Positions 43,938-51,260 of a stretch of DNA of 64,000 nt are shown one piece after another. The DNA comes from Leptonema illini DSM 21528 (GTDB lineage: Bacteria; Spirochaetota; Leptospiria; Leptospirales; Leptonemataceae): assembly GCF_000243335.1 (NCBI RefSeq), contig NZ_JH597773.1, forward strand, positions 1,261,989-1,325,988, written 5' to 3'. The translations under genes and the position numbers were made by a program. Under the pieces are notes generated by a model. It saw only the letters and a program-made list of their open reading frames with translations. It was not told where the DNA came from and did no database searches. Positions within the stretch are counted from its first letter, which is position 1; every line of letters begins with the position of its first letter.

Positions 43938-44059
43938 GCTTTCGCGTAACGGTCGTCGCCTTTTTTTACAAGGAAAAAACAACCTCTTCTTTTCAGTGAG
44001 CGGAATTCTTTCTAATATCTTCATTGAAAGCCTCACGCAGAGCGAATTTCTGTCCCGAT

Positions 44060-47000
44060 ATGGCGAAAGAATCTACAAAAAAGGCCCCTGAGAAGGCAGA
44101 ACCGACGGAAGCCGCTTTGAGCAATCGAGCCCGGCGCGAAGAGGCCATCCTGCAATTCTGGAAGGAGAAGGAGATCTTTCGCAAGCATATTGAAAAGAAC
44201 GCCTCCGGACCTGTCTTCTGTTTTTACGAAGGTCCGCCGACGGCGAACGGTCGGCCCGGCATCCACCACGTTCTCAGCCGGGTGTATAAAGATATCTATA
44301 TTCGCTATTATGGTCTGAAGGGCTATCATATTCCGCGTAAGGCCGGATGGGACTGTCATGGTTTACCCGTCGAGCGTGAGGTCGAGAAAGAGCTCGGCAT
44401 TCAGACGAAATCCGAGATTGAAGAGAAATACGGTCTTGAGAAGTTCAACGAGCTCTGCCGTCAGTCCGTTTTGAAATACGTCGATGCCTGGAATACGTTT
44501 ACCGATCGCCTCGCATTCTGGGTCGATCTTGAGAATCCGTACTTCACGATGGATAACTCTTACATCGAAGGCGTCTGGTCGCTTCTGAAAACGATTCATG
44601 AAAGGGGATTGCTCTATCAGGGATACAAGGTCGTGCCTTTTGATCCGGTGATGGGGGCGACGATGAGCGACGCCGAGGTCGCACTCGGATACCGCACCGT
44701 GCAGGATCCGTCCGTGACGGTAACGTTTCGCATCATACACGAAAAAGACGAGAAGAAAAAAGACCTGAACGGCGTCAACGTCCTCGTCTGGACGACGACG
44801 CCCTGGACGCTTCCGGCTAACGTGGCGCTTGCATTGAATGCAAACGAAAGCTATGTCGTTTTCACCGTGGACAGAGAGGAGCTGAAAGGACAGCGCTTCC
44901 TCTGTGCCGCCCCTCTACTTGAAGCGGTCACCGCCCATCTTGCGAAAGAGGGAGCGACCGTTACCGTACAATCCACGCATAAAGGGGCCGACCTTGCTGG
45001 CCTTTCTTACGAGCGTCTGTATGATTTTATTCCCGCTCCGGCCGATAAGAAGGGCTGGTACACGGTGACCGCCGATTTCGTAACGATGGATACGGGAACG
45101 GGCATCGTGCATATCGCCCCTGCCTACGGCGCCGACGACCTCGAGGTCGGGCTCAAGCATGATCTTCCCGTAATCTACGGGGCGCAGCTTGACGGTAAAT
45201 TCAAAGAGGGCCCCTGGATGGGCGTCTTTTTTAAAGATGCCGATAAAGAGATCTTAAAAGAGCTGAAGTCGCGCGGTCTCATCTGGAAAAGCGAGACCTA
45301 CAAGCACGAATATCCGTTTGGATGGCGCACGGGCGCTCCGCTTATGTATTACGCGAAAGACGCCTGGTATATTCGCACGACCGCCCTTCGCGACGAGCTG
45401 ATTCGCAATAACGAACAGATTCGCTGGGTACCCGGCCACGTCAAAGAAGGACGATTCGGCAACTGGCTTGAGAATAACAGAGACTGGGCTCTTTCGCGAG
45501 AGCGCTACTGGGGCACGCCGCTTCCCGTATGGATGGACGACGAAGGCCATATCGAGGTGATCGGATCGGTAGCCGAGCTTGAAAAGAAGACCGGACGCAA
45601 GCTTACCGAGATGGATCTGCATCGTCCCTATGTCGACGAGATCACGTGGAAGGACGAGAAGAACGGCCGCATCTTCAGACGCACGCCCGAGGTCATCGAC
45701 TGCTGGTTCGATTCCGGTGCGATGCCCTACGCTCAGTGGCCGCTTTCGGATAACGCCAATCGCGAGCGCTTCTTTCCCGCCGACTTTATCTGCGAGGCGG
45801 TCGACCAGACCCGCGGATGGTTTTATACGCTTCTTGCCATCTCGTCGATGGTTTCGGGAACGTCCTCGTACAAAAACGTCGTCTGTCTCGGTCATGTGCT
45901 CGATGCAAAAGGCGAAAAGATGTCGAAGAGCAAGGGCAATACGGTCGATCCATGGGACGTTTTCAGCGCGCATGGCGCCGACGCCATCCGCTGGTATTTC
46001 CTGACCGGAGCTCCTCCGGGCAATTCGCGTCGTATCGGCTCGCCGGGAACTCCTGGAGATCCGCTGCCTCTTGTGCAGGGATTCTTCAATATGATCGAGA
46101 ACTCACTCGAATTCTATCATCTGTATGCAAATGCCGACGGCGTAAACGTCGCCGATCTGAAAAAGGCGACGCCTTTCGCCGAGCGTCCCGACATCGACCG
46201 CTGGATTCTTTCGCGTCTGCAGCAGTTAGTCGAAGAGGTGAGCGTCTCGCTGACCGATTACGACTGTTTGCGTGCCGGACGTCGCATCGAAGAATTCGTC
46301 GACTCGCTGTCGAACTGGTACATTCGTCGCAACCGCCGTCGTTTCTGGAAAGGCGAGAAGGATGCCGATAAACTCGCCGCCTACGATACGCTGCATACCT
46401 GTCTGCGCACGCTTGCCGTTTTGATGGCGCCTTTTACGCCGTATCTGGCCGAAGATCTCTTTCGCCGGCTGCGAAGCGAGAATGACCCGGAAAGCGTGCA
46501 TCTGTGCGCCTGGCCTGAAGCAAGCGCCATGTCCATCGATGAGGCGGCCTTGCGCGACGGCGATAACGTGCTGCTTGTGGCCTCGCTTGGACGATCTGCC
46601 CGTCAGCGTTCGGGCCGCAAGGTGCGTCAGCCGTTATCCGAGGTGATGGTCTTTGCTCCGGCAGCGGCTCGTGAGGCGATCCGGGCGAATGAGACGGTAT
46701 TGCTCGAAGAGTTGAACGTGAAGACGTTAACCTTTCTCGACGATGCCGGCGGATATTTCGGCTATGTTGTGAAGCCCAATCTGCCCGTACTCGGGAAAAA
46801 GATCGGCTCAAAGATCCGCTTCTTGCAGGATTATTTGAAGAAGGCCGATCCCACCGAGCTTGTGGCCAGCCTGAAGGCCGGGTCGATTAACGTCGATCTT
46901 GACGGTGAGTCGGTCACGCTCGAAGAGGAAGAGTTCCTGATCGAAGGCATTTCGAAAGAAGGCACATCGGGCGCCGAATCAAAGGGCTTTGTCGTCGTAA

Positions 47001-47287
47001 TCGATACGGAGCTCAATGACGAACTGATTCGCGAGGGCATGGTGCGCGATATCGTGCGCCAGATCCAGGAGATGCGCAAGAAGGCATCGTATGATATCAG
47101 CGATCGCATTCAACTGTCGCTCAAGGCCACTGGATCAGAGCTTGAGAAGGCCGTTGCTGAGTTTCAGTCGTATATCGAAGGCGAAACGCTTGCAACCGTC
47201 GTCGCGTCCGTTGCGGAAGCCGATGCCACCGATACCGTGCGTTTCGAGCAGGGCGAGGTAACGATAGCCATACAACGGAAGAAGTGA
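44060..47287 (+). CDS. ileS: isoleucyl-tRNA synthetase (eukaryote-like type)
   Basis: The product is 1075 residues from ATG 44060. The class I signatures are GPPTANGRPGIHH (HIGH site) and GEKMSKSKGNTVDPW (KMSKS). The sequence KAGWDCHGLPVEREVEKELG and the long C-terminal half place it in the second, eukaryote-like IleRS group, which is commonly tolerant of mupirocin. The editing domain (VWTTTPWTLPANVALALN) is present. There is no zinc-finger tail as in E. coli-type enzymes. Its 3' side opens onto the repeat array. Confidence 0.97.
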   Translation: MAKESTKKAPEKAEPTEAALSNRARREEAILQFWKEKEIFRKHIEKNASGPVFCFYEGPPTANGRPGIHHVLSRVYKDIYIRYYGLKGYHIPRKAGWDCHGLPVEREVEKELGIQTKSEIEEKYGLEKFNELCRQSVLKYVDAWNTFTDRLAFWVDLENPYFTMDNSYIEGVWSLLKTIHERGLLYQGYKVVPFDPVMGATMSDAEVALGYRTVQDPSVTVTFRIIHEKDEKKKDLNGVNVLVWTTTPWTLPANVALALNANESYVVFTVDREELKGQRFLCAAPLLEAVTAHLAKEGATVTVQSTHKGADLAGLSYERLYDFIPAPADKKGWYTVTADFVTMDTGTGIVHIAPAYGADDLEVGLKHDLPVIYGAQLDGKFKEGPWMGVFFKDADKEILKELKSRGLIWKSETYKHEYPFGWRTGAPLMYYAKDAWYIRTTALRDELIRNNEQIRWVPGHVKEGRFGNWLENNRDWALSRERYWGTPLPVWMDDEGHIEVIGSVAELEKKTGRKLTEMDLHRPYVDEITWKDEKNGRIFRRTPEVIDCWFDSGAMPYAQWPLSDNANRERFFPADFICEAVDQTRGWFYTLLAISSMVSGTSSYKNVVCLGHVLDAKGEKMSKSKGNTVDPWDVFSAHGADAIRWYFLTGAPPGNSRRIGSPGTPGDPLPLVQGFFNMIENSLEFYHLYANADGVNVADLKKATPFAERPDIDRWILSRLQQLVEEVSVSLTDYDCLRAGRRIEEFVDSLSNWYIRRNRRRFWKGEKDADKLAAYDTLHTCLRTLAVLMAPFTPYLAEDLFRRLRSENDPESVHLCAWPEASAMSIDEAALRDGDNVLLVASLGRSARQRSGRKVRQPLSEVMVFAPAAAREAIRANETVLLEELNVKTLTFLDDAGGYFGYVVKPNLPVLGKKIGSKIRFLQDYLKKADPTELVASLKAGSINVDLDGESVTLEEEEFLIEGISKEGTSGAESKGFVVVIDTELNDELIREGMVRDIVRQIQEMRKKASYDISDRIQLSLKATGSELEKAVAEFQSYIEGETLATVVASVAEADATDTVRFEQGEVTIAIQRKK

Positions 47288-47370
47288 AGGCGACAGTATA
47301 AACCTCAGAGGACTCCGAGAGTAAGGAGTGACGAGTCCGAGATCTGTCGTTGCCTGGTGAAATCCTTTTT

Positions 47371-47647
47371 TACCGCGAAAAGCGCGAAAGAGAACCGAAG
47401 GCAAGGTGCCTTATCTCTTTTCGATCTGAGACCCATTGGAAAAGGTTTTTGGAAAGACCCCCGGACCTCTGTTTTCGAGGTTCGCGTCTTTCGTGTTTTT
47501 CGCGGTCAACAACTCTTTGATTGTGCTGTAAACTCCCGCCACAGAGAGGTCAGTTCAACTGACAGAAGAGTGAACCCGGCTAACCACCCCATACCTTTCT
47601 CCCTCCACTCCTCCTCCGTGCCCTCAGCGTCCTCTGTGGTAAAAAAA
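47371..47647. repeat. composite repeat, unit 1
   Basis: Layout: block A of nCnCGAAAn nonamers (only two left, 47371-47390), a loop, block C that is its inverted complement (47476-47508), the perfect palindrome GTCAGTTCAACTGAC (47549-47563), and block E of nCnCnGAGG nonamers on the minus strand (47611-47640) followed by A7. Confidence 0.85.
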
Positions 47648-47676
47648 GTTTGTAGCTTTTGATTGAAATCCGTTTG

Positions 47677-47955
47677 TCCACGAAATACACGAAAAGCGCG
47701 AAAGAGATCCCCGGCCACGGACCTTTTCACTCTTTATTCTTTGACTCATTTGATGCAGTCTCAGGAAAACCGGTGAAGCCCTCTATTCGAGGTTCGTGTC
47801 TTTCGTCCCTTTCGTGGACACTAACTCTTTTTTTCAGTTGTAAACTCTCGTAACAGAGAGGTTACAACTGAGAGAAGATTGAACCCGGCTAACCACCCCA
47901 TACCTTTCTCCTTCCGCACTCCCTCCGTGTCCTCCGTGCCCTCTGTGGTAAAAAA
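47677..47955. repeat. composite repeat, unit 2
   Basis: Block A 47677-47704, block C 47788-47820 and block E 47921-47955. The central palindrome is replaced by a different inverted pair (CAGTTGTAA and TTACAACTG), so the pairing is kept while the bases changed. Confidence 0.85.
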
Positions 47956-48011
47956 CTGAACACGATAGTTGGAGCAGAAGGAGCGGGCAATGGCAGAGGC
48001 CACGAACAAGA

Positions 48012-48377
48012 TCATCCCCGTTTCAGAGTCAGTGCAACCTGGGCAATGCCGCTTAACCCGCAGGCGACGACGATCAGCGCCGATACCGGAAGAGTGAAGC
48101 GATCGTTGCCGGCGATATAGAATCCGGTATGTATGAGCAGGGTCAGAATACCGAGCCCTCCAGTAATCAAAGACCAGCGACGCCCGTTAGGTGCTCGCAA
48201 AAGGACCATTCTAAAGCCGAAAACGAGAAAAGGGATGATGGCAAGATTCAGGATATCGAACAGCTGAATGCCACCGGGCAGCAAGAAAAGCTCCCATTCC
48301 TTCCAGTAGGCTGCGTCGATCTGATGCACGATAAGAAGCGAAAGTGTGGCGATGTAAAGGCGTTCAATGTTCTTCAT
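48012..48377 (-). CDS. small four-span membrane protein (DUF6713-like)
   Basis: The product is 121 residues from ATG 48377; frames reaching further upstream only add translated repeat sequence. Four membrane spans are evident. The first loop has HQIDAAYWKEWELFLLPGG, which fits my memory of a small membrane family annotated DUF6713 (H-x-x-D-A ... K-E-W); this match needs checking. It lies exactly between repeat units 2 and 3 and is the only gene in the 2-kb array. No good ribosome-binding site is visible. Confidence 0.7.
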   Translation of the reverse strand: MKNIERLYIATLSLLIVHQIDAAYWKEWELFLLPGGIQLFDILNLAIIPFLVFGFRMVLLRAPNGRRWSLITGGLGILTLLIHTGFYIAGNDRFTLPVSALIVVACGLSGIAQVALTLKRG

Positions 48378-48431
48378 TGCATGCAATAAACGCAAGCTTT
48401 TATTTTCTGTCAAAGGAAAGAGTATTCCGGG

Positions 48432-48714
48432 TCCACGAAATACACGAAAAGCGCGAAAGAAAACCGAGGGCAAGGTGCCTTATCTCTTTTCGATCTGGGC
48501 CCATTGGAAAAGGTTTTTGGAAAGACACCCGGACCTCTGTTTTCGAGGTTCGCGTCTTTCGTGATTTTCGTGGACACTAACTCTTTGATTGATCTGTAAA
48601 CGCCTCCCACATAGAGGTCAGTTCAACTGACAGAAGAGTGAAACCGGACTCCGACCACCCCGATACCCTCCACTCCTCCTCCGTGCCCTCAGCGTCCTCT
48701 GTGGTAAAAAAAAA
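48432..48714. repeat. composite repeat, unit 3
   Basis: The best-preserved unit. Block A 48432-48459 (three nonamers) pairs with block C 48544-48575 across a loop of about 84 nt, roughly 22 of 27 positions complementary. The palindrome GTCAGTTCAACTGAC is at 48617-48631, and block E lies at 48676-48714, ending in a long A-run. Confidence 0.88.
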
Positions 48715-48742
48715 GTTTGTGCCTTTGATTGAAATCCGTTTG

Positions 48743-49027
48743 TCCACGAAATGCACGAAAAGCGCGAAAGAAATCCCAGGCTAACGTGTCTTTTACCTTT
48801 TCTTTCTGGGACTGATTGGATAAGGTCTTCGGAAGATCGGTGAAACTCTATATTTGAGGTTCGCGCCTTTCGCGTTTTTTGCGGTCAATCACTCTTTGAT
48901 TAAGCTGCGGACTCCTAAAGCCGTGAGGTCAATTCAACTGACAGGAGAGTGAAACCGGACTCCGACCACCCAATAACTCTCTCCTCCGCCCTTCCTCTGT
49001 GCCTTCAGCGCCCTCTGTGGTAAAAAA
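48743..49027. repeat. composite repeat, unit 4
   Basis: Block A 48743-48770, block C 48855-48887 and block E 48991-49027. The palindrome is degraded by one base (GTCAATTCAACTGAC). Confidence 0.85.
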
Positions 49028-49056
49028 GGTTTGTAGTTTTAGTTGAAATCCGTCTG

Positions 49057-49337
49057 TCCACGAAATACACGAAAACCGCGAAGGAAATCATCTGCTGACG
49101 TATCTTTCCCTTATTTTATAGTGGGATTCCTGGATAGGGTTTTAAAGAGCTCCTCGAAGCTCTGTATTCGATGTTCGTGTCTTTCGTGATTTTCGTGGAC
49201 AACAATTCTATGATTGAGCTACTAACTCCCGCTACGGAGAGATCATTTCAACGGACAGAAGAGTGAAACCGGACCAACGATCCAAAAACTTTCTCATCCA
49301 CTCTTCCTCCTCGCCCTTAGCGTCCTTAGTGGTGAAA
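49057..49337. repeat. composite repeat, unit 5
   Basis: Block A 49057-49083, block C 49168-49200 and block E 49302-49337. It is the most diverged unit, at the end of the array next to the gene at 49409. The middle palindrome is largely lost. Confidence 0.8.
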
Positions 49338-49361
49338 CAAGGCTGTCCTGCGTTTAGCGTC

Positions 49362-49399
49362 CTGAAAAGTGCTGGATTTTCAGACATCCGCTCGATACT
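49362..49399 (+). promoter_or_regulatory. candidate promoter with the dps-shared 15-mer
   Basis: CTGAAAAGTGCTGGA at 49362-49376 overlaps a -35-like position, followed after 17 nt by a -10-like GATACT at 49394-49399. ATG 49409 is only nine bases further, so the leader would be very short. Confidence 0.3.
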
Positions 49400-49408
49400 C
49401 TGAATACG

Positions 49409-50134
49409 ATGAAGGAATGGAAGCCGCAGCGTGAATTCAAGAAGGCTGATTTTCCCGCAAATCCCGGTGAGCGAAAGCAAGAGAAGCGACCGTCAGCGGA
49501 AAAAGCGGCTCCGCTCGAGCCCGAGATAACGACGGATGTGAAGCCGGGCCGCGTGGTGAAGGCCTGGATGCCGCCTTCGGTCGCAGAGCCGTCTCAGACG
49601 AAGAAGGTCAACAGTCCGGCCTTTTCAGAGGGCGCCGGTATTGAGAGATCCGCTTCTGCAACTGGCCCGGCTGACGCAAGGCCATCGGAAAAGACCAGAT
49701 CTCCGGAACGACAGAGTATTCCGTCGCAGACTTCTGCACAGCCGCCGCGAAGCACTCCAAAACTCTTTGCCCCTGAATCGAGAGAGCAGGCGGCGCGAAG
49801 AGCGGCCGAAGAGGCCGACACAAAGCGAGCCGCCGCCGACATGAGCGGAGAGATGCTCGATGAGTTAGTCATCGCTCGCCCCATCGAAGCCACCGATCTT
49901 CTGCGCCGCTGGTACTGGCAGAAGCCCGAGGGCGGCACGACGCCGCAGACGAAGATCTATATCATTCTGCACTCGATGAAGAAAGAGACTCTCGTAGAGT
50001 TATACAGATGCTTCACGGCGATGGAGCGTCGGCAGATGCATGAGATCTTTTCAAAGAAGCGCACGGTTGTGAAAAGCGAGATCCTATCTGCGCGCGGTGA
50101 ATTCATGCAGCGACTGTCGCAAACGTTCACTTAA
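49409..50134 (+). CDS. protein with FliF-tail/FliG-N-like C-terminus
   Basis: The product is 241 residues. The first 150 are disordered and rich in Pro, Ser, Ala and Glu. The last ~95 are helical: LDELVIARPIEATDLLRRWY resembles the FliF tail that binds FliG (P-E-x-V-A-x-x-L-R-x-W-L), and TKIYIILHSMKKETLVELYR resembles the first helices of FliG (K-A-A-I-L-L-x-S-L-G). If so, two interacting motor segments are merged in one protein. This is by eye and could instead be an MgtE-N-like helical repeat. No signal peptide or membrane span. It faces the ArsA-like genes. Confidence 0.6.
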   Translation: MKEWKPQREFKKADFPANPGERKQEKRPSAEKAAPLEPEITTDVKPGRVVKAWMPPSVAEPSQTKKVNSPAFSEGAGIERSASATGPADARPSEKTRSPERQSIPSQTSAQPPRSTPKLFAPESREQAARRAAEEADTKRAAADMSGEMLDELVIARPIEATDLLRRWYWQKPEGGTTPQTKIYIILHSMKKETLVELYRCFTAMERRQMHEIFSKKRTVVKSEILSARGEFMQRLSQTFT

Positions 50135-50180
50135 AGACCGACCTGAAACCAGAGTCGATAGCCCGTGTCGGCCTCTTTGC

Positions 50181-51260
50181 TCAGCGACGCAGGCGGCTGC
50201 CCAGACGATCCAGCTCTTCAAGACGCAATTCACCGGCCTGTTCCAATCCGGCGAGCACCGGCAGCTCCGTTACGGTATTTTCGCCAAGACGCTTCATGAC
50301 GCTTTCGCGTATCGTCGAGGCCGATTGCAGATACTGGCAGAAAAGTGCGTCGAAATCGGTGGCCGGGAAGTTCGTCTTCGCGAAGAGCGAGCGCACCTGC
50401 TCATCGGCAAAAAACGCCTCAGAAATGCTTCGATTGAGGACGATGCGCGAATCCTTCATGTCGTTATCCGCGAGGATGCGCGCAAGCTCGGCGGCGACAG
50501 AGACGGCATCGTCGCGAGGCGAGCAGACAAGCACGACGTCCGTTGCCGGATCTCTAATCCATCGACGCGCCTCTTCGAGCCGGTCGACCATACGAAACAT
50601 CACACGATCCATCATGAGCAGCAATTCGCCAAGAGAGAGAAGGATGTTTTCGCCGCCGACCTTGCCAAGCGCCTGAAGGATACTTTTCGCTCCGCTTCTG
50701 AAGATACGCTGCATAAAGCCGGCGTTAGCCTCGTCGCCTCCGGCGAACCATTTCAGCCATTCAAGGATCTTGCTATCAAAAAATGCGAGCAGACGCTCCG
50801 GCCGGATCAGAAAGTCCACGGCGTGAAGGCCTGGAGCTGTATCGATGATCAGATCGTCGGTATCGGGAAATTGCTCGATCCACTCCGCCATGCGTATCGG
50901 AGCGAGCGTCTCGGTGGCAGAGGCGATCTTCTCGGCCACCGTTTGAAATAGCGGATGCTCGAAAAGCCTCTGCTCATGATCTCCTTCAAGCCCTTCGTCG
51001 CGAATCCAGCGGCGCAGGCTGTCGGGTAACGAAAGAACGGCCGCTCGCAACTCTCCGTCGCCCGTCTCACTTTTCCAGAAGATCTGCCCCGATTCGTCGA
51101 TGTGATCGGCGCCCAGCGCCGTCTTCAAACGCTTCGCCGGATCAATGGAAAGCAGCCCGACGCGGCGGCCCTGAAAGGCCAGGTGTATGGCTAACGATGC
51201 CGAAAGCGTCGTCTTGCCGACGCCGCCGGCCCCCAGAAATATATGAAGACGGGTTTTCAT
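50181..51260 (-). CDS. ArsA/Get3-like ATPase, second subunit
   Basis: The product is 359 residues. It has the P-loop GAGGVGKTTLSASLA with the normal GKT lysine but without the first signature lysine of the deviant Walker A, then LLSIDPAKRLKTALG (switch I-like) and DLIIDTAPGLHAVDFL (switch II). This pattern matches the actinobacterial Get3-like subunit with GSGGVGKT. It overlaps the preceding ArsA-like gene by four bases, so the pair is very probably a heterodimer. No arsenite-binding cysteine cluster is seen; handling of membrane proteins or a wall/lipid process is more likely than arsenite export. Confidence 0.88.
   Translation of the reverse strand: MKTRLHIFLGAGGVGKTTLSASLAIHLAFQGRRVGLLSIDPAKRLKTALGADHIDESGQIFWKSETGDGELRAAVLSLPDSLRRWIRDEGLEGDHEQRLFEHPLFQTVAEKIASATETLAPIRMAEWIEQFPDTDDLIIDTAPGLHAVDFLIRPERLLAFFDSKILEWLKWFAGGDEANAGFMQRIFRSGAKSILQALGKVGGENILLSLGELLLMMDRVMFRMVDRLEEARRWIRDPATDVVLVCSPRDDAVSVAAELARILADNDMKDSRIVLNRSISEAFFADEQVRSLFAKTNFPATDFDALFCQYLQSASTIRESVMKRLGENTVTELPVLAGLEQAGELRLEELDRLGSRLRR

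Follow-up and report, generated by a model that had tools for sequence, protein, structure and literature searches.

A tandem array in Leptonema illini composed of small gene-less elements, whose kind of ends also brackets GxxExxY nuclease-like genes

The window analysed here, a stretch of 64,000 nt of the Leptonema illini genome, contains an array of composite repeats between ileS and a downstream ORF (Table 1). Sequence inspection and a repeat finder resolve five units of about 310 bp, grouped 2 + 3: the A blocks start at about 47371, 47676, 48431, 48742 and 49056, giving spacings of 305, 755, 311 and 314 bp, and the spacing of 755 bp arises because an interruption of ~450 bp that contains a DUF6713 gene separates units 2 and 3. 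The five units described in the first-pass annotation stand, as two plus three and not as one unbroken run. Blocks A and C of each unit are the two ends of one gene-less element of ~140 bp, and block E belongs to a second element type, of which it forms one end. That the blocks are the ends of small dispersed elements had been overlooked, as had the fact that the same kind of end brackets genes of the nuclease-like GxxExxY family. In unit 1, block A has lost one nonamer, and a decayed CCACAGAGAGG adjoining the palindrome GTCAGTTCAACTGAC may be the left end of an E element.

Table 1. Features of the array and its neighbours, in window coordinates except for the first row.
Feature	Position	Strand	Detail
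Window in genome	C1:1261989-1325988
ileS, left neighbour of the array	44024-47287
Unit 1, CACGAAA-type gene-less element	47371..47507	+	folding z -6.0
Unit 1, left end A	~47371-47390		two nonamers left
Unit 1, right end C	~47480-47506		inverse orientation
Unit 1, small palindrome GTCAGTTCAACTGAC	47549..47563	.	between C and E; sequence
Unit 1, block E	47613..47639	-	three-nonamer CACAGAGG-type end, CCAC outermost; pattern scan
Unit 2, CACGAAA-type element	47675..47820	+	A 47676-47703, C ~47793-47819
Unit 2, block E	47922..47948	-	CACAGAGG-type end; pattern scan
DUF6713 gene, gap between units 2 and 3	48012..48410	-	Pfam PF20460, E 1e-41
Unit 3, CACGAAA-type element	48431..48577	+	A 48431-48458, C ~48548-48576
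Unit 3, block E	48678..48704	-	pattern scan
Unit 4, CACGAAA-type element	48741..48890	+	right end in GCGG form, discordant with left end
Unit 4, block E	48994..49020	-	pattern scan
Unit 5, CACGAAA-type element	49055..49202	+	A 49056-49083, C ~49173-49201
Unit 5, block E, degenerate	49315..49332	-	pattern scan, 2 mismatches
ORF, right neighbour of the array	49409

Across the window, CNCGAAA pairs with up to one mismatch occur 18 times where 1.05 would be expected, and CNCNGAGG pairs with up to two mismatches occur 16 times against an expectation of 2.2; in neither case did any of 100 shuffles reach the observed count. By inspection, single blocks consist of tandem nonamers without an internal palindrome. 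The stem that had been proposed to form between A and C is real, in that all five units fold better as RNA than 200 shuffles (z -3.4 to -6.6), and the blocks are indeed better kept than the spacers, conservation in the alignment of the units being highest in the arms. A search of 46500-50500 with the Rfam covariance models found nothing up to E = 1. Distant from the array, at 2226-2252 on the minus strand, lies a lone three-nonamer block of mixed CGAAG/GAG type, CCACGAAGGACGCTGAGAGCGCAGAGG.

The presence of further copies elsewhere in the genome had been set beforehand as a check, and such copies were found: in the whole genome (4,522,760 bp, three contigs) the exact CNCGAAA-pair pattern has 135 matches and the exact CCNCNGAGG-pair pattern 63, with none for either reversed control, and 56 similar places are spread across it. 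Within ~110 kb around fetched copies, 12 of 13 left-right neighbour pairs of the CACGAAA type span 131-156 bp; the ends of these pairs are related and their interiors diverged, as expected of a family of miniature inverted-repeat elements. Compensatory change between the arms, likewise named in advance, is also seen, with the outer A/G position concordant at both ends in 14 of 16 L. illini elements (Fisher p = 0.013, hand count) and a permutation p < 0.001 for the Bacteroides elements described below. PF13366, the Pfam family of GxxExxY, is represented in the L. illini genome by only two genes (L031 and L032), both less than 1 kb from repeat blocks; the two score 125-143 bits against PF13366 (curated cut-off 22) and 131-137 bits against TIGR04256 (cut-off 35). 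The gene at C1:3743495 is enclosed by CAGAGG-type inverted ends, whereas around the other one (L031) no ends can be recognised, two CACGAAA elements being just its neighbours. No GxxExxY gene of the subfamily that bears CGAA-type ends in other genomes was found in L. illini, and PF05635, the S23/IVP family discussed below, had no match in this genome. At L032:2708-3265, adjoining the cluster of repeats near the second GxxExxY gene, lies an ORF that by eye resembles the C-terminal part of a group II intron reverse transcriptase.

GxxExxY genes have strings of this kind as neighbours, and we therefore tested the association. A first set of 80 named loci was gathered with a narrow GPGLLES-type query and is biased towards that type; it covers Spirochaetes, Bacteroidetes, Planctomycetes, Verrucomicrobia, Proteobacteria, Chloroflexi, a cyanobacterium, Methanoperedens, Methanothrix and others. 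An enlarged set comprises 156 GxxExxY genes, drawn from archaeal genomes as well as from many phyla of bacteria. Enrichment of period-8 and period-9 clusters at the 80 loci is confined to the 200 bp nearest the GxxExxY gene. When the upstream flank was scored against the reverse complement of the downstream flank, with control regions taken from the same locus, 52 of 79 genes in the first set and 102 of 156 in the enlarged one exceeded the control 99th percentile for a flanking inverted repeat, the median score of the 156 being 30 as against 17 in control regions; in roughly one GxxExxY gene out of three, no inverted repeat stands out clearly. A typical end is a row of three or four modules, AACCACAGAGGACACAGAGAGCACAGAGG for example, that face inward towards a gene lying directly inside, and the gene-bearing element has a median length of ~500 bp end to end (10-90% range, 452-649 bp). 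The microrepeats measure 8-10 nt and stand about three to an end, in inverted orientation with CCAC outermost, and the end types encountered across many phyla comprise the CACGAAA and GAGG types together with CACAGATT, CAGGATTAA and CACAAAG. The suggestion that A/C and E look like versions of a single three-microrepeat module is supported. Among 198 spirochaetes, GAGG arrays and PF13366 co-occur to a moderate degree (16/55 vs 17/143, p = 0.006), a relationship that differences in G+C content, and the existence of further end types, may obscure.

The type of end follows the subfamily of the protein that it brackets. On a protein tree of 117 columns, many of whose forks are unresolved and for which the shuffles leave relatedness in, the distinction between GAG-core and GAT-core ends requires 4 changes, compared with 22 after shuffling (0/500 as low), and the microrepeat period (8, 9 or 10) requires 7, compared with 14 (0/300 as low). 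Two controls address host effects: both end types are co-resident in nine genomes, and in 101 of 107 comparisons the nearest protein from another genome shares the end type. The four labelled rows with CGAA-type ends need 3 changes, which is no better than the best shuffles, and the link of this end type to a clade is therefore only suggestive; the nearest neighbours of these rows are mostly one another.

GxxExxY itself (PF13366/TIGR04256) is a protein of ~115 aa with 13 invariant columns, among them the residues of the G-x-x-E-x-x-Y motif, D61, E71-x-K73 and Q85. Its AlphaFold2 model has a pLDDT of 96.8. Foldseek returned no match below E = 0.001; PD-(D/E)XK proteins are numerous among the ranked structural matches, which include Cas4-like SSO0001 (Z 9.8, 3.3 Å over 95 residues), AF1548 (Z 8.1, 2.4 Å over 85 residues) and the archaeal Hjc resolvase (Z 7.5, 3.0 Å over 82 residues). 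A Z near 8 is weak evidence for anything beyond the general fold, and it is from the invariant residues together with the fold that we consider GxxExxY a putative PD-(D/E)XK nuclease-like protein. One query each found it on 8 of 72,556 plasmids and in none of 50,697 phages, and this distribution is reminiscent of a chromosomal REP-type system. The best plasmid match, NZ_OY725952.1 (L234), is labelled a 24.8-kb Bacteroides finegoldii plasmid and carries thrA, asparaginase, radA and phosphoglycerate mutase; with its radA and other housekeeping genes, it looks like a mislabelled chromosomal fragment. A defence system was considered with PADLOC, which gave only weak partial PDC-M36A matches, and no defence assignment was made.

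Whole elements are present in some Bacteroidaceae and absent from others at the same site, the interval between radA and the gene that follows it, which measures 0-90 bp in many species and contains a GxxExxY element in others. The 18 elements found there form clusters by protein, and every cluster has an end type of its own (CACAGAGGA; CACAGATTA; CACAGAGTxx); GxxExxY protein identity is uncorrelated with RadA identity (r = 0.06), a pattern best read as several independent arrivals, with replacement of an older element by a newer one as a possible alternative. At this site the ends of any one element resemble each other more closely than they resemble the ends of other elements, with 0/5000 permutations as high. 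In one radA-FAD gap (L260), heptamer-type repeats (AGGGTTAAAGGGTGAAGGGTTAAAGG...) stand where relatives have GxxExxY elements.

Gene-less elements are also dispersed in Bacteroides. Of 100 genomes of this genus, 17 contain triplet arrays and none contains the reversed pattern, and array ends number up to 43 in some genomes; PF13366 is found in 13 of these 17 genomes, as against 30 of the 83 others (hand count). One genome, G371, a single contig of 4.84 Mb, has 27 array ends and no PF13366 match, so the arrays persist there without the gene. Its gene-less elements of ~140 bp are 84-92% identical within flanks that are unrelated (~0.55), and they have therefore dispersed as units bounded by their ends. 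One copy of this dispersed element (L366) carries a nested insert of ~100 bp with an inverted repeat of its own, CGTCAGTTCGATAC ... GTATCGAACTGACG. An orthologous gene-less element of 153-155 bp is inverted in place in G419 (L372) relative to four others (L358-L361), and in the inverted element the middle microrepeat is altered at both ends together. As to a target-site duplication, direct repeats of 3-5 nt occur at chance level and a few longer ones slightly above it.

A parallel layout surrounds a protein family unrelated to GxxExxY. Genes for S23/IVP four-helix-bundle proteins (PF05635) at the spirochaete loci L204-L233 are bracketed by inverted arrays of ~7-nt microrepeats such as AAAGTTGAAAGGGGAAAGTTGAAAG and AATGTGTAATTGGTAATT (L210, L215, L216 and L218 are examples), and 13 of 22 such genes lie above the control 95th percentile. 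The 23S rRNA intervening sequence with S23 (PMC4990558) resembles the elements described here in being a ~430-nt element with one small ORF within long inverted terminal repeats, sporadically distributed and of unexplained mobility; it differs in that its protein is a four-helix bundle and in that it sits in rRNA helices, where RNase III excises it from the RNA.

The L. illini array is very probably a tandem cluster of gene-less elements belonging to a widespread system, and we are a shade more confident still that this system includes GxxExxY; that GxxExxY is the enzyme that moves the elements is the likeliest reading, though at no better than even odds. On balance, and with some reserve, we favour a reading in which small gene-less mobile elements were amplified in tandem to give the composite array, the GxxExxY elements are their presumed gene-bearing form, and GxxExxY mobilises them. 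The gene-bearing form would measure ~450-560 bp end to end, with one GxxExxY gene between ends of the same kind. Protomers of GxxExxY would bind the microrepeats, which lie roughly one helical turn apart, and would bring two inverted ends together and cleave there, whereupon the freed or copied element would enter another intergenic gap. Gene-less elements with matching ends would ride along, and tandem units would then arise by ordinary duplication. For the CACGAAA elements of L. illini, we infer movement by a GxxExxY protein that is absent from the present genome. Several observations weigh against this reading: L. illini lacks the subfamily with CGAA-type ends and has L031 bare of ends, G371 keeps its arrays with no PF13366 match, no clear target-site duplication turned up, a third or so of the GxxExxY genes show no clear inverted repeat, S23/IVP genes lie within analogous ends, and GxxExxY is nearly missing from plasmids and was not seen in phages with one query. 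Considerably more tentative, and in our judgement somewhat doubtful, is the idea that GxxExxY and its ends make up a novel kind of mobile element that, at ~450-560 bp, would rank with the smallest autonomous ones known, and in which one ~115-aa PD-(D/E)XK nuclease recognises inverted ends of tandem microrepeats and moves its own element and swarms of gene-less ones, with no target-site duplication. Were it true, it would account for the CACAGAGG/CACGAAGG-type repeats that lie between genes in many phyla, and the S23/IVP-heptamer elements would be a parallel system.

The strongest rival is a passenger model, in which the elements are mobile and are moved by an unlinked enzyme of the host or of another mobile element, GxxExxY being cargo with a role perhaps in defence, addiction or maintenance. 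Two unrelated proteins, S23/IVP and GxxExxY, lie inside analogous microrepeat ends, and the gene inside could therefore be a passenger; the 27 array ends of the PF13366-free genome G371 and the lack in L. illini of the GxxExxY subfamily expected for CACGAAA ends are also in its favour. However, end type and period track the GxxExxY tree and separate paralogues within a genome, for which there is no simple passenger account, and we consider the model unlikely, if deserving of serious weight. A structured RNA or a role at the level of transcription, with the arms forming an RNA stem (a terminator, a stabiliser or an RNase III substrate) selected for pairing, would suit the folding of the five window units, the concerted change of the arms and the 28-bp terminal stem of the C. 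burnetii intervening sequence (PMC4990558). Yet arm mismatches compatible with G-U pairing show no excess over A-C mismatches (118 vs 103, p = 0.35), so that constraint on an RNA stem is not supported; no Rfam family matches, and the microrepeat period and the link to the protein tree would be superfluous for a stem, which makes this explanation quite improbable. Least probable of all is that the paired arrays serve as sites for a global regulator, IHF/HU or a similar nucleoid protein, for although the same architecture of three tandem repeats in opposite-strand pairs at variable distance has been described (PMC2700814), the arrays bracket and co-vary with one gene family, gene-less copies disperse as units, interiors included, and that paper itself calls the match of IHF/HU to site unknown.

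Repeats that look to be of the same kind were described, at the earliest that we could trace, in Geobacter metallireducens, whose class 2 sites comprise three tandem TCTCCGTS[Y] repeats, paired, with binding by IHF/HU given as a guess (PMC2700814, 2009). TCTCCGTS[Y] is the reverse complement of the CACGGAGA module, and the sites lie, like the blocks here, on opposite strands at variable distance; the class 3 sites are built of heptamers. The Geobacter sites differ in having been read as IHF/HU regulator sites and not as mobile elements, and the text makes no link to GxxExxY. In the open-access literature, no paper was found that ties such repeats to GxxExxY. The family is an uncharacterised nuclease-like one, spread over bacteria of many phyla and archaeal genomes, and repeats of this sort fill intergenic DNA in some genomes, where their translation yields spurious low-complexity proteins. 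A link between the two gives the protein a testable function and the repeats an origin, and the S23/IVP parallel may help with the old question of how the 23S rRNA intervening sequence moves.

Our best reading overall is of a REPIN/MITE-like system whose gene-less elements share their ends with elements that carry a nuclease gene, and it points to a family of very small mobile elements whose members had not been connected before. As in MITEs, the elements are short and gene-less, with terminal inverted repeats and dispersed copies in unrelated flanks, features seen in the G371 family of Bacteroides and in the L. illini pairs; unlike MITEs, they have no clear target-site duplication, no linked DDE transposon and ends composed of tandem microrepeats, and GxxExxY is a candidate for the trans-acting mover of these MITE-like elements. 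With REPIN/RAYT (PMC3116915) they have in common short repeats in inverted pairs that form hairpins, an intergenic location, tandem clusters that include flanks and a non-autonomous character, as well as a tie to an enzyme gene on the chromosome, which has the same repeats on either side and co-evolves with them. Inverted pairs with a spacer, dispersed and able to form hairpins, are present here (12/13 pairs at 131-156 bp; hairpin z -3.4 to -6.6), and the blocks inspected contain no palindromic single repeat. The differences are that the linked protein is of putative PD-(D/E)XK type whereas RAYT is a Y1/HUH transposase, that each end has ~3 microrepeats of 8-10 nt whereas REPs are single palindromes, and that GxxExxY genes are enclosed in elements with inverted ends and in some genomes are present in several copies. 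The link between repeats and GxxExxY would thus be a nuclease-centred counterpart of REPIN/RAYT.
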